A stretch of DNA of 64,000 nt from Coleofasciculus sp. FACHB-T130. GTDB lineage: Bacteria; Cyanobacteriota; Cyanobacteriia; Cyanobacteriales; FACHB-T130. Of this stretch, positions 1-19,336 are shown one piece after another. The notes beneath the pieces were generated by a model, which had not been told where the DNA came from, ran no database searches, and saw nothing but the letters and a program-made list of their open reading frames with translations. A program made the translations under genes and the position numbers. The DNA lies in contig NZ_JACJOG010000046.1 in the NCBI RefSeq assembly GCF_014695375.1, forward strand, positions 62,001 to 126,000, written 5' to 3'. Position 1 is the first letter of the stretch, and every line of letters begins with the position of its first letter.

Positions 1-32
1 CGGCTATAGAAGGGGCAGTACCTTCCCAGTGG
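1..32 (+). tRNA. 3' end of a tRNA-like gene cut by the window edge
   Basis: Only the T arm and the 3' acceptor strand are inside the window. The T stem is GAAGG (9-13) with CCTTC (21-25), and the loop is GGCAGTA rather than the usual TTCRANY. The acceptor strand is CCAGTGG. Nearly the same arm recurs in the Val-TAC gene (655-678) and the Ile-GAT gene (2206-2229), so this is a third member of that set. The anticodon lies outside the window. Confidence 0.55.
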
Positions 33-36
33 ATTT

Positions 37-106
37 CCCTCTGCCAACGGAATAGGATCTGGTGCTACGAACGCCGGACTTGATGGTTCGACTCCATCCA
101 GAGGGG
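37..106 (+). tRNA. tRNA-Arg (ACG), short D arm
   Basis: The acceptor CCCTCTG (37-43) pairs fully with CAGAGGG (99-105). The anticodon stem TGGTG/CGCCG (60-64, 72-76) closes a 7-nt loop CTACGAA with U33 and anticodon ACG. The T arm is GATGG-TTCGACT-CCATC. The D arm is reduced (CC with GG around AACGGAATA). No CCA is encoded. It lies 4 nt from the partial tRNA before it and 3 nt from the next one, so the array is probably cut from one transcript. The sequence differs from standard housekeeping Arg-ACG tRNAs, so it may be a specialised or decaying copy. Confidence 0.75.
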
Positions 107-109
107 TTT

Positions 110-178
110 CCCTTGCCTGCGGGATGCAGACCTAGCCCTCCGAAGGCTGGCGACCAAGTTCGACTCTTGGGCGAGGGG
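110..178 (+). tRNA. tRNA-Arg (CCG), 5-nt D loop
   Basis: The acceptor CCCTTGC (110-116) pairs with GCGAGGG (171-177) with one G-U pair. The D arm is CTGC-GGGAT-GCAG, whose loop of only five bases is unusually small. The anticodon stem TAGCC/GGCTG closes CTCCGAA with anticodon CCG at 140-142. The T arm is CCAAG-TTCGACT-CTTGG. No CCA is encoded. The Arg-CCT gene at 373 has the same acceptor type, D arm and T arm, so the two are duplicates with different anticodons. Confidence 0.78.
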
Positions 179-182
179 TTAT

Positions 183-280
183 TCCGGGATAGCTCAATAG
201 CAGAGTTCGCGGCTGTTAACCGCGTTGTTGTAGGTACTCTCCCTTGAAGGCTGTGCCTACAAGTCCTACTCCCGGAGCCA
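183..280 (+). tRNA. tRNA-Asn (GTT) with a 23-nt insertion in the T loop, CCA encoded
   Basis: The acceptor TCCGGGA (183-189) pairs perfectly with TCCCGGA (270-276), followed by G and an encoded CCA (278-280). The D arm is GCTC/GAGT. The anticodon stem CGCGG/CCGCG is perfect, with loop CTGTTAA and anticodon GTT at 215-217. The T stem GTAGG (230-234) pairs with CCTAC (265-269), but 30 nt lie between them instead of 7. Removing 235-257 would leave the loop TACAAGT, and the insert is flanked by TAC on both sides. It could be an intron-like insert, a small duplication or a decayed gene. The perfect stems argue against simple decay. Confidence 0.65.
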
Positions 281-287
281 ATTTTCA

Positions 288-363
288 CCCGTGTCCTAAC
301 AGACAAAGCATACACACTCGGCTGTTAACCGACAAAACCAAATGCTTTTTCGACTTGCACGGG
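288..363 (+). ncRNA. Y-RNA-like stem-closed RNA carrying an Asn-type anticodon hairpin
   Basis: CCCGTG (288-293) pairs with CACGGG (358-363). Inside follow TCCTAAC on the 5' side and CGACTTG on the 3' side, then the inner stem AAAGCAT with ATGCTTT. This is the same scaffold as the seven elements at 16151-18977. The distal part is only a hairpin, TCGG-CTGTTAA-CCGA (318-332), whose 7-nt loop equals the tRNA-Asn(GTT) anticodon loop of the neighbouring genes. It lies between tRNA-Asn and tRNA-Arg(CCT) in the array, about 14 kb from the Ro60-like gene. Calling it a Y RNA is inference from the scaffold it shares with the elements beside that gene. Confidence 0.65.
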
Positions 364-372
364 ATAAAACTT

Positions 373-441
373 CCCTTACCTGCTGGATGCAGACTTATTC
401 CTCCTAAGAATGGTAGCCAAGTTCGACTCTTGGGTAAGGGG
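373..441 (+). tRNA. tRNA-Arg (CCT), 5-nt D loop
   Basis: CCCTTAC (373-379) pairs perfectly with GTAAGGG (434-440). The D arm is CTGC-TGGAT-GCAG, again with a five-base loop. The anticodon stem TATTC/GAATG closes CTCCTAA with anticodon CCT at 403-405. The T arm CCAAG-TTCGACT-CTTGG is identical to that of the Arg-CCG gene at 110. No CCA is encoded. Confidence 0.78.
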
Positions 442-445
442 TTAA

Positions 446-517
446 TGCCAGATAGCTCAATGGCGGAGCAAGCGGCTGTTAACCGCAAGGTTGTGGGTTC
501 GACCCCCACTCTGGCAG
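446..517 (+). tRNA. tRNA-Asn (GTT)
   Basis: A complete cloverleaf: acceptor TGCCAGA/TCTGGCA, D arm GCTC/GAGC with a GG in the loop, anticodon loop CTGTTAA with GTT at 478-480, and T arm GTGGG-TTCGACC-CCCAC. The top pair of the anticodon stem (A-A) is mismatched. The discriminator is G and CCA is not encoded. It starts four bases after the Arg-CCT gene. It is a second Asn gene in the array and is not identical to the one at 183. Confidence 0.85.
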
Positions 518-529
518 TTTCATTTGTGC

Positions 530-601
530 GGGTGGTTGGCATATCGGCTGTGCAGCTGGCTTTTAACCAGCACCAGATAGGTTCAACTCCTATACCACCC
601 A
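530..601 (+). tRNA. tRNA-Lys (TTT)
   Basis: GGGTGGT (530-536) pairs perfectly with ACCACCC (594-600). The anticodon stem GCTGG/CCAGC closes CTTTTAA with TTT at 562-564. The T arm is ATAGG-TTCAACT-CCTAT. The D stem is only three pairs (GCA/TGC). The discriminator is A and no CCA is encoded. Its anticodon loop, CTTTTAA, is the same one shown by the minimal Y-like RNA at 16151-16220. Confidence 0.85.
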
Positions 602-8509: not shown

Positions 8510-9334
8510 TTACGATTTAAGATTATCTCGAAAGTGAGATGCAGCGGATTCGGTAATCTGTTTAATGGCTTGCAAACTCGGCGGTAGTGTGGCGCTATCC
8601 ATATCCAACCACAACAGATACTCGATATTACCAGCAGGCCCGGTCACTGGCGACCAACTTAAGCCGCGATATTGCCATCCCAACGGTTGCGCGGCTTGTA
8701 ATACTTGGAAAATAGCATCTGCTTGATCGTCAGGATCTCGCACCACACCTTTTTTACCAACACGCGATCGCCCGACTTCAAACTGCGGCTTTACTAGCAA
8801 TACCGCTTCTCTAGGAGGCTGTGTCAATTTCCACAAAGCATCGAGAATTTTGGTTAGGGAAATAAACGACACATCTACAACCGTTAAATCTGCTGGCTGT
8901 TCATCACCGTACAATTCCTCTGGTGTGAGATAGCGCAGATTAGTCCGTTCTTTCAACACTACCCGCGTATCATTGCGTAATTTCCAGTCAGCTTGTCCGT
9001 AACCGACATCAACGCCATAAACTTTTTTTGCCCCAGCTTGCAGCAAACAATCGGTGAATCCGCCAGTAGAAATTCCGCCATCTAAGCAAATTCGATCTTG
9101 TACGGAAATGCCAAATTCTTCAAGTGCTTTGGAGAGTTTTTCACCGCCTCTGGAAACAAAACGCGATCGCTCTTTAATTTTAATTTGCGCCTCGGTTTCT
9201 ACCTCCGTTCCCGGCTTATCAATGACTTGCTGATTAACCATTACTTCACCGGCACGTATTAGCCGTTGTGCTAACTGCCGGGAGGTGCATAAATCAAGTT
9301 CTACTAATAAGGTGTCAAGTCGTTGTTTCGCCAT
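8510..9334 (-). CDS. tlyA: TlyA-family rRNA 2'-O-methyltransferase
   Basis: 274 residues. An N-terminal S4 RNA-binding domain (LDTLLVELDLCTSRQLAQRL, residues about 5-65) is followed by an FtsJ-like Rossmann methyltransferase: SRGGEKLSKAL, then DGGISTGGFTD as the SAM-binding motif, VYGVDVGYGQ, and TVVDVSFISL. TlyA enzymes methylate ribose in 16S and/or 23S rRNA; many are still annotated as hemolysin A. The SAM motif has GGIS where most members have IGAS. Length is normal. It lies upstream of a spacer and appears to be transcribed alone. Confidence 0.88.
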   Translation of the reverse strand: MAKQRLDTLLVELDLCTSRQLAQRLIRAGEVMVNQQVIDKPGTEVETEAQIKIKERSRFVSRGGEKLSKALEEFGISVQDRICLDGGISTGGFTDCLLQAGAKKVYGVDVGYGQADWKLRNDTRVVLKERTNLRYLTPEELYGDEQPADLTVVDVSFISLTKILDALWKLTQPPREAVLLVKPQFEVGRSRVGKKGVVRDPDDQADAIFQVLQAAQPLGWQYRGLSWSPVTGPAGNIEYLLWLDMDSATLPPSLQAIKQITESAASHFRDNLKS

Positions 9335-9575
9335 TAATTATATATATTAGGGATTGCTTGCGTGCAAGTTAATAGAGCAAAGCGATCGCAATCGAAAAGG
9401 AACTCCGCTGGTTAGTTATTACACACTATTTAAAGGATAGCTACTTAATCGCTTACCTCCCAGGTTCTTCGCCCCTTCCTCCCACGTTCGCTGCTTCGAT
9501 CGAGTCGAAGCCACGGATACTTATCCTCTCGTAAACAGTATGTATGCTCTAAAAGTTAGGGCACGCAAGCATTAC

Positions 9576-13841: not shown

Positions 13842-14501
13842 TTATTCCCTACCGACCATTTGTGCAGCCACTTCTTCGGCAAAGTTGCTTTCTGGCTTTT
13901 CAATGCCTTCGCCTAACTTAAAGCGGACAAAGCGACGCACTTGGATATTTTCGCCCAGTTGGGCGACGCTTTGCTTAACCAGTTCTTCCACCACAATACT
14001 TTGGTTGCGAACGTAAGGCTGATCCATCAAAGACATTTCTTTCAGGCGTTTTTCAATTCGTCCTTGAAGAATTTTTTCTTTGATGTTTGCTGGTTTGCTA
14101 GCCAAGTCATCGCGTCCCCTTTCGATTTCTGTTTCTTTCGCAACAATTTCAGTCGGAATGTCTGCTACCTTTACATACTCCACATTCGGACAAGCGGCAA
14201 TTTGCATGGCGATGTTCCGCACCAGGGTTTGAAATACTTCACTGCGACTTACAAAATCACTTTCGCAGTTCACTTCTACTAGCACCCCAACTTTACCGCC
14301 AGTATGAATGTAGCTGTCAATAATTCCTTCTGCCGAAATACGATGGCTGCCGCCGCATGTTCTACTCATACTTTTTTGGCGCAACCATGCGATCGCTTTG
14401 GTCATATCGCCATTGGTTTCATCCAGCGCCTTCTTACAATTCATCATGCCTGCACCTGTTTGTAGGCGCAGTTGTTTGACAACTTGTGCAGTTATTTCCA
14501 C
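13842..14501 (-). CDS. tsf-like: EF-Ts paralog (diverged)
   Basis: 219 residues, the short cyanobacterial/plastid EF-Ts form. The UBA-like N-terminus with [23 protein letters not shown] is followed by the core domain with [26 protein letters not shown], and the C-terminal [22 protein letters not shown]-Ts exchanges GDP on EF-Tu. Here TDFV, a main EF-Tu contact, is SDFV, and the loop before ISAEGII is altered ([13 protein letters not shown]). Housekeeping tsf normally follows rpsB, which is absent here. The gene instead follows the Ro60-like gene, 150 bp downstream on the same strand. I infer a second, locus-specific EF-Ts; if the genome has no other tsf this reading fails. Confidence 0.8.
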
Positions 14502-14653: not shown

Positions 14654-16220
<1,567 letters not shown>

Positions 16221-17121: not shown

Positions 17122-17249
<128 letters not shown>

Positions 17250-18140: not shown

Positions 18141-18266
18141 GCTCCGCGCAAGTCGAAAAAGCTGTTTGAATATACACGGGAATTGAACCCGTCACGGCTT
18201 GATTATGAGTCAAGTGCTCTAACCAACTGAGCTAGTATGTAAGCTTTATCTATTAGGGCGCGAAGC
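18141..18266 (-). ncRNA. Y-RNA-like RNA with a tRNA module in normal order (CAU anticodon)
   Basis: Closing stem GCTTCGCGC/GCGCGGAGC (9 bp, one G-U); inner stem AAAGCT with AGCTTTTT. The module at 18169-18241 begins TACATACTA, has D arm GCTC/GAGC with a GG in the loop, anticodon stem CTTGA/TCAAG with loop CTCATAA (CAU), and T arm ACGGG-TTCAATT-CCCGT. The acceptor TACATAC pairs only partly with GTATATT. The D, anticodon and T arms are as good as those of a real elongator Met or Ile tRNA, but the acceptor is absorbed into the Y stem. Confidence 0.75.
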
Positions 18267-18292: not shown

Positions 18293-18438
18293 GTGTTCCG
18301 CGCAAGTTAAAAAAGCTATTCACTGGAGAGTTACCGTTACTCTACACTGCCAAATAATGGCAGCGGTAGGAATTGAACCTACATCTCCCGCTTATCAGGC
18401 GGATGTGTGTATGCTTTTCAGGTTAGGGCGCGGAACAC
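18293..18438 (-). ncRNA. Y-RNA-like RNA with a circularly permuted tRNA-Ile (GAU)
   Basis: Closing stem GTGTTCCGCGC/GCGCGGAACAC is perfect over 11 bp. In 5'-3' order the RNA has the anticodon arm TCCGC-CTGATAA-GCGGG, AGAT, the T arm GTAGG-TTCAATT-CCTAC, the 3' acceptor half CGCTGCC, a 7-nt linker ATTATTT, the 5' acceptor half GGCAGTG, TA, and the D arm GAGT-AACGGTA-ACTC. The two acceptor halves pair over 7 bp (one G-U). So the tRNA is complete but its ends are joined, and it is opened between the D and anticodon arms, where the Y stem is attached. Confidence 0.8.
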
Positions 18439-18504: not shown

Positions 18505-18624
18505 CACTTCGTACAAGTTAAGAAAGCTATAGTTAACGGGAGTTGAACCCGACCTATCGATTAATCAGTCGATTGCTCTACCACAGAGCTAGTATGTAAG
18601 CTTTTTAAGTTTGGGTACGAAGTG
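18505..18624 (-). ncRNA. Y-RNA-like RNA with a degenerate tRNA module in normal order
   Basis: Closing stem CACTTCGTAC/GTACGAAGTG is perfect over 10 bp and differs from the CGCGC type by compensating changes, good evidence that the stem is selected. The inner part has AAAAAGCT and TACATACTA as in the others. D arm GCTC/GAGC is intact. The anticodon-like stem ATCGA/TCGAT closes an 8-nt loop CTGATTAA, so no single anticodon can be read. The T arm is four pairs (CGGG-TTCAACT-CCCG) and the acceptor does not pair well. It may be decaying or freed from tRNA-like constraint. Confidence 0.65.
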
Positions 18625-18665: not shown

Positions 18666-18790
18666 GCTACGCGCAAGTTTAAGAAGCTTTTTTGACACCT
18701 CTCCATGCAGCGGAGAGGGTAGGAATCGAACCTACAATTCGGTTTCCCGAACGTTACCAGTTTGTATGCTTCTTACATCGGGGCGCGTGC
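18666..18790 (-). ncRNA. Y-RNA-like RNA with a rearranged tRNA-Ser-like body
   Basis: Closing stem ACGCGC/GCGCGT, inner stem GAAGC/GCTTC. In RNA order: ATACAAACTGGTAACG, a hairpin TTCGG-GAAA-CCGAA, T arm GTAGG-TTCGATT-CCTAC, 3' acceptor half CCTCTCC, linker GCTGCAT, 5' acceptor half GGAGAGG, TGTC, then the Y stem. The acceptor halves pair perfectly over 7 bp and G follows the 3' half, as in tRNA-Ser. The GAAA-capped hairpin stands where a class II variable arm would be. No D arm or full anticodon arm is left. It is a permuted, reduced tRNA. Confidence 0.7.
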
Positions 18791-18830: not shown

Positions 18831-18977
18831 TCCCGCGCAAGTCAGCAAAGCTGTTATCACTTGGCGCTCTATCCGTTGAGCTACGACTGCATTAAGAAGC
18901 AGTCGGTGGGAGTCGAACCCACTACCTCCCCGACCGAAGCGGGAATGTGTGTAAGCTTCACAAATTAGGGCGCGGGA
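18831..18977 (-). ncRNA. Y-RNA-like RNA with a circularly permuted tRNA-Arg (UCG)
   Basis: Closing stem TCCCGCGC/GCGCGGGA is perfect over 8 bp. In RNA order: anticodon arm TCCCG-CTTCGGT-CGGGG (anticodon UCG), AGGTA, T arm GTGGG-TTCGACT-CCCAC, 3' acceptor half CGACTGC, linker TTCTTAAT, 5' acceptor half GCAGTCG, TA, D arm GCTC-AACGGATA-GAGC, then the 3' strand of the Y stem. The acceptor is a perfect 7-bp stem. All four tRNA arms are canonical, but the break is between D and anticodon arms. This is the first RNA after the small leading gene of the locus. Confidence 0.82.

Positions 18978-19036: not shown

Positions 19037-19336
<300 letters not shown>

Follow-up and report, generated by a model that had tools for sequence, protein, structure and literature searches.

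The window, a stretch of 64,000 nucleotides from the cyanobacterium Coleofasciculus sp. FACHB-T130, carries on its minus strand a gene for a protein of 476 amino acids with HEAT-type and vWA regions (14654-16084), which we assign to the Ro60/Rsr family, and upstream of it a cluster of short structured elements that we interpret as Y RNAs. The open reading frame of the Ro60 protein spans 14654-16159, with a probable start at 16084. Along the minus strand, the heads of the clustered elements resemble a permuted tRNA-Arg(UCG) (18832-18976, with a sub-threshold match to the Rfam YrlA model), a permuted tRNA of Ser type broken in the D loop (18668-18789, isotype assigned by eye), a non-permuted tRNA (18508-18621), a circularly permuted tRNA-Ile(GAU) (18297-18434), a non-permuted tRNA-Met(CAU) (18143-18264) and a non-permuted tRNA-Leu(UAA) (17125-17246), and closely upstream of the Ro60 gene lies a minimal element with a short hairpin head (16151-16220). 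Two more elements were found elsewhere in the window: at 9359-9567 on the minus strand, the head begins like a sarcin-ricin loop and copies the GTPase-associated centre of 23S rRNA, and at 288-363 on the plus strand, within a tRNA array, it is an Asn(GUU)-type anticodon arm only. Also on the minus strand are paralogues of ribosomal protein L7/L12 (16700-17176, among the Y RNAs) and EF-Ts (13842-14501, downstream of Ro60), and a TrcR-type operator TGTAGTAT upstream of the Y cluster (19307-19314). A gene for an FtsJ + S4 (TlyA-like) rRNA methyltransferase was observed at 8513-9334, 24 nt past the rRNA-headed Y RNA.

Read from 18434 to 18297 on the minus strand, the element with the tRNA-Ile(GAU)-like head consists of the outer stem (P1, 18434-18428), a conserved CCUAA loop, the inner stem (P2, 18419-18413), ACACAC, an anticodon arm (18387-18403; loop CUGAUAA, GAU at 18396-18394), a T arm (18366-18382), the closed acceptor (18345-18365), a D arm (18328-18342), the partner of P2 (18316-18310), a conserved ACUUG and the partner of P1 (18303-18297), so that the 5' and 3' strands of the Y stem occupy 18413-18434 and 18297-18316, respectively. 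The closed acceptor is composed of the 3' half CGCTGCC (18365-18359), the linker ATTATTT (18358-18352) and the 5' half GGCAGTG (18351-18345), and forms 7 of 7 pairs. The outer stem reaches 18293-18438, a span defined by its perfect 11-bp pairing GTGTTCCGCGC/GCGCGGAACAC. The original prediction had claimed this order of arms at 18293-18438, and every part that it named was located; the outer stem enclosing the permuted tRNA was missing from it. An unconstrained fold of 18434-18297 agreed with the order, giving the tRNA hairpins and two outer helices (-49.4 kcal/mol, z -4.99, equalled by 0 of 200 shuffles). ARAGORN called no tRNA at 18297-18434. The Rfam tRNA model matched only the non-permuted part of the element (25.0 bits in a 14-kb search and 30.7 bits when 171 bases were searched, for a cut-off of 29), and the Rfam YrlA model (RF02553) matched it in T-acceptor-D order with an E value of 0.0095, under the gathering cut-off (22.1 vs 69 bits). 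In Trichocoleus sp. FACHB-40, a homologue (L090:8603-8770, where L090 denotes the locus) keeps the acceptor halves, the linker and the D arm, and its T arm carries an insertion.

In a stem scan, one flank and stem was common to the nine elements of the window (scores of at least 5.8) around quite different inserts, and three more matches in the window scored at most 3.6 and were chance-like. In all, the scan listed 98 hits, those below about 4.5 being partly chance, and the reversed control gave 5 hits with a top score of 3.9. The 5' motif had 8 matches in the organism's own genome, all in the Y cluster or the adjoining array, compared with 0 in the backward control; a match to the 3' motif at G000:C59:227295 was taken as chance, being a protein-coding-like stretch with no paired 5' partner in a loose scan. 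The adjoining array comprises 36 tRNAs (G000:C46:57583-62602, locus L007, continued in window 1-601), lies beside the Ro60 locus and holds two Y elements (L007:5291-5499 and window 288-363). The same genome has a second Ro60 gene (G000:C4:10855-12300) with two Y RNAs of its own (L050:9808-10046) and a remnant (C4:9083-9298). ARAGORN calls a tRNA-Leu at 17149-17223 and a tRNA-Met at 18168-18241; these are Y RNA heads, and such annotations are likely to be false tRNA genes.

Searches of the Ro60 open reading frame against Pfam and NCBIfam gave no TROVE/Ro60 match and only a weak vWA match, and a profile built from 13 of its relatives had two matches among PDB sequences, both of them TROVE proteins (E 0.3). 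The AlphaFold model of the protein (pLDDT 79.4, pTM 0.67) has a HEAT-repeat ring and a vWA fold; the 11 best PDB matches found with Foldseek were all Ro60 structures (E 1e-10 to 1e-7), and VIA-align gave Z values of 18.9-21.7 for ten Ro60/TROVE entries (residues 5-471), the next entry, vWA-only, scoring 13.8. Judged by this modelled fold, the product of 14654-16084 is a diverged Ro60/Rsr protein.

A genome search found the Ro60 protein in 18 of 292 genomes of the phylum. The Rfam YrlA cut-off was reached in 0 of 18 genomes; another permuted element was matched by the YrlA model end to end, at 37.8 bits. A scan of GTDB contigs yielded 251 Ro60 relatives, the nearest being that of the cyanobacterium Trichocoleus sp. 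FACHB-40 (98% identity), and the best 80 of the 251 were used, of which 79 have a cyanobacterial label and one that of an acidobacterial MAG. In the loci of these best 80 (1.40 Mb), the stem scanner found 372 elements scoring at least 4.5, distributed over 78 of the 80 loci; all except one (371/372) were on the Ro60 strand, and the reversed sequence of the 80 loci gave 0 elements at that score. A Y element ends 18-244 nt upstream of the Ro60 start in 58 of the 80 loci, and most elements lie farther off, some of them within tRNA arrays or past the Ro60 gene. The protein was also seen on two plasmid records, and a part of a 122-kb viral-database contig (L170) encodes a Ro60 of 49% identity with one clear and two weaker tRNA-headed Y elements on the same strand.

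Canonical T arms were present in 187 elements, and 64 of these 187 had a closed acceptor with at least 6 of 7 pairs (61 at 7/7, with 32 different 3' halves); when acceptor halves were swapped among the 32, 7/7 pairing was obtained in 5.5% and 6/7 in 32%. For covariation, the set of 32 non-redundant permuted elements was reduced to 24, with 8 omitted, and these were aligned and scored at 30 pairs: 96.0% of cells were standard pairs vs 81.1% after shuffling, 20 of the 30 pairs had changed on both sides vs 11.4, and the covariation score was 0.494 vs 0.188 for shuffled and 0.091-0.142 for slid partners. For the acceptor, where the original prediction had proposed a search for compensatory changes, 7 of 7 pairs were changed on both sides in these 24 elements and 95.2% of cells pair, a percentage that, like that of the outer stem, is conditioned by selection, the permuted class having been chosen at 6/7 or more acceptor pairs and the scanner hits at 6/7 or more outer-stem pairs. 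The D stem, outside this selection, was 85.7% paired, and the inner stem, selected only via the fixed RAGC/GCT motif, 95.8%. The halves flanking the linker pair and covary, which together with the same acceptor halves and linker in the FACHB-40 homologue bears out the predicted permuted tRNA architecture. Self-splicing or ribozyme flanks were considered and dropped, given the Ro60 fold and the covariation of the stem.

A survey of the heads drew on the window, on L007 and L032-L051, and on the loci of the best 80 of the 251 relatives. Its 423 distinct elements (4.4 per locus) were sorted into classes with rough labels: linear tRNA (138), short (74), permuted tRNA (62, and 16 more by a relaxed rule), 23S helix 69-71 (40), sarcin-ricin loop with GTPase centre (38), pseudoknot-like (8, compared with 6 of the 423 in another sorting) and other (47), where many of the 47 are visibly tRNA-like and at least one pseudoknot-like element was placed in the relaxed permuted class. 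The break in the permuted heads lies at the junction of the D and anticodon arms, within the D loop or within the anticodon region. The statement that the permuted tRNAs share one break point holds for the pair 18297-18434 and 18832-18976 and goes no further, since the break falls within the D loop in 18668-18789 and at other points of the anticodon region in further elements; likewise, the element at 18297-18434, earlier taken as evidence independent of its neighbour at 18831-18977, is so only in part, because the two have the flanking stem in common and are members of a single repeated family. An anticodon arm was parsed in 104 of 108 linear heads, with U33 in 99 and 29 different anticodons, 16 of the 104 reading stop codons; 48 of 64 permuted heads had no parsed anticodon arm. 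Palindromic T-loop insertions were seen in an array tRNA (window 181-290) and in 17 of the 423 elements, such as L090:8061-8227 and L040:7060-7217.

The heads that copy rRNA are retained in many loci; examples of 23S-copying heads are window 9359-9567 (minus strand), L033:7380-7562 and L034:6674-6853. The 23S head in the organism's own genome gave an Rfam LSU match at window 9395-9477 (E 1.7e-12, model positions 1077-1160). Compared with E. coli 23S rRNA, 3 of 3 GTPase-centre heads scored 49-72 over 1021-1119, above shuffled maxima of 34-39, and the sarcin-ricin loop matches in the three heads were 10, 12 and 18 nt long, only the 18-nt one exceeding all shuffles. The heads of the helix 69-71 class scored 32-51 in 4 of 4 cases, above shuffled maxima of 26-28. 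Their 5' part is clear, and it is only suggestive that this head is permuted with a break in the helix 69 loop, the 3' part scoring 27 in the best example, where shuffles reached 28, and 18-25 vs 28-29 in the other three. By eye, a head with two apparent pseudoknots (GGUGCGU...ACGCUGCAAGCCUGA.ACC...CAGGC) was also recognized closely upstream of Ro60 at L036:7949-8092, L138:9847-9989, L160:9847-9989 and L131:3543-3661; an Rfam search of the L090 copy of the pseudoknot-like head gave no match.

Among 41 Ro60 loci with full flanks, the recurrent same-strand neighbours were an orphan gene (27), a ThiF/E1-like gene (26), a second orphan (26), a small orphan (15), the L7/L12 paralogue (12) and the RNA 2'-phosphotransferase KptA (6); the EF-Ts paralogue was found in the window and in L090, and neither a PNPase gene nor rtcBA was among the neighbours tested. 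Over the 1.5 kb that precede the first Y element, TGTAGTAT occurred 78 times in sense vs 12 times in antisense orientation, in 52 of 74 loci, where the background predicts 6.6 occurrences and letter-permuted motifs gave a mean of 2.8 and a top value of 25. None was found close before the first tRNA of the 36-tRNA array, the nearest being at L007:1140 and 1151. According to passages of PMC10272220, this motif is the site of TrcR in the trn promoter of Anabaena; there TrcR acts as a repressor of rtcB and of a 26-tRNA operon, which ribosome antibiotics induce. The Anabaena system resembles the present one in its translational-stress tRNA array and its operator, and here the 36-tRNA array additionally holds two Y elements; a text search of PMC10272220 gave 0 matches for Ro60, and the passages on the trn operon do not mention Y RNA.

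Since the element at 18297-18434 has the shared end-paired stem and an adjacent Ro60 gene on the same strand, it is almost certainly a bacterial Y RNA of YrlA type, with a permuted tRNA-like head. Like YrlA (RF02553) with Rsr/Ro60, it has a long stem formed by its paired ends, a head with T arm, closed acceptor and D arm in that order, and a gene of the Ro60/Rsr family at its locus; as the order in the model shows, a permuted tRNA-like head is already known from YrlA itself. It differs from YrlA in its additional intact anticodon arm, and its family differs in counting linear tRNAs, anticodon arms and pieces of 23S rRNA among its heads, in having several elements per locus and in the absence of rtcBA among the neighbours tested. 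As its score is under the RF02553 cut-off, we place it beside that Rfam family, as a variant outside it. In red algae and archaea, circularly permuted tRNA genes give working tRNAs via bulge-helix-bulge splicing. They too have the 3' tRNA part before the 5' part and a linker at the acceptor, whereas here the break is filled by the Y stem and the break points vary. Ribosomal-protein leader RNAs are known for rRNA mimicry, i.e. RNA copies of the protein-binding sites of rRNA, whereas the rRNA copies described here sit on a Ro60-type Y stem. A literature search found no title or abstract opening on rRNA-mimicking or cyanobacterial Y RNAs; as far as this search shows, in which the core Y RNA papers (Chen 2014, Sim and Wolin 2018, Wang 2018) stood outside the comparison, the rRNA heads and multi-head sets are undescribed.

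Taken as a whole, the locus very probably encodes Y RNAs with interchangeable heads copied from the translation machinery, which would be bound by Ro60 and would act as decoys or sensors under translational stress. The 5' and 3' ends of each RNA pair into the long stem that the neighbouring Ro60 would bind, and the heads of the set copy exposed functional parts: of tRNAs, the anticodon and acceptor/elbow ends, and of 23S rRNA, helices 69-71 as well as the sarcin-ricin loop with the GTPase-associated centre. A linear head shows the anticodon end with its acceptor hidden, and a permuted head shows the elbow with its acceptor closed; in the tRNA-Ile-like head the acceptor is closed by ATTATTT, which leaves no free 3' end for an amino acid, and judging from such closed ends neither kind of head could be charged. 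Translational stress would turn the operon on, and Ro60 would then display the copies to agents that target tRNAs and ribosomes, be they nucleases, rRNA modifiers or drugs, a decoy/sensor step to which we give nearly even chances. We further propose, tentatively and at rather less than even chances, that the Ro60 RNP serves as a display panel whose exchangeable heads copy the RNA sites attacked in translation (anticodon loops, acceptor ends, the sarcin-ricin loop with the GTPase centre, and helices 69-71), where damage to or capture of the bait would protect translation or trigger repair, together with the stress tRNA array. For the tRNA-like domain of YrlA, passages of PMC7790460 describe an earlier proposal that it might competitively inhibit an anticodon nuclease. 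Counting against decoys, the rRNA heads copy some parts that play, to our knowledge, no role as toxin targets, and the known Y RNAs, in the relevant passages of PMC8394870, tether PNPase, which favours another use of the same RNA. There, in RYPER, Y RNA tethers PNPase to Rsr, and tRNA-modifying enzymes act on YrlA. The heads could likewise be adapters that bring PNPase, tRNA/rRNA-modifying enzymes, or proteins resembling L11/L7-L12 or EF-Ts, to Ro60, where damaged tRNA and rRNA would undergo quality control or decay. The L7/L12, EF-Ts and KptA genes at such loci, as well as a GTPase-centre head that could bind stalk proteins, are consistent with these adapters, whereas the variety of heads at each locus, bare anticodon arms included, exceeds the need of a single tether and PNPase is absent among the neighbours tested; we regard adapters as a serious possibility, though one that we lean against.

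Other explanations are much harder to reconcile with the family. A position shortly before the Ro60 start in most loci would suit autoregulatory leaders, in which Ro60 binds stems within the transcript that encodes it and the heads are of minor importance, but the greater number of elements lie farther off, in some cases within tRNA arrays or past the Ro60 gene, and the heads are structurally constrained, which makes this reading improbable. The earlier description as a tRNA gene, with RNase P and RNase Z cutting at the linker to give a tRNA used in translation, is not supported and is very improbable in our estimation: in spite of the intact cloverleaf parts, the GAU, the fully paired acceptor and the Rfam tRNA score above the cut-off in the short search, processing would leave the Y stem as a large insertion between the D and anticodon arms, most permuted heads have no parsed anticodon arm, some linear heads read stop codons, the T arm of the homologue carries an insertion, and the same stem also bears heads of other kinds, from non-permuted tRNAs and bare anticodon arms to short hairpins and pieces of 23S rRNA. 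When the permuted tRNA is read as the head of a Y RNA, such cutting is not needed. It is equally improbable that a palindromic mobile element has dispersed these sequences as tRNA pseudogenes; the repeated flanks with inverted ends and the T-loop insertions resembling that of the array tRNA fit such a spread, but it is contradicted by the compensatory changes in stem and heads and by the strand bias, and the elements are nearly restricted to Ro60 loci, many of which retain rRNA heads.

The reading as Y RNA heads accounts for permuted tRNA-like sequences in a bacterium without any need of permuted tRNAs, and it is a warning that tRNA finders report such heads as tRNA genes. The family joins heads copying both ends of tRNA and two functional centres of 23S rRNA with a Ro60 gene and a stress-type operator. 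Few functions are known for bacterial Y RNAs, and this cyanobacterial family makes the function of their heads directly testable.
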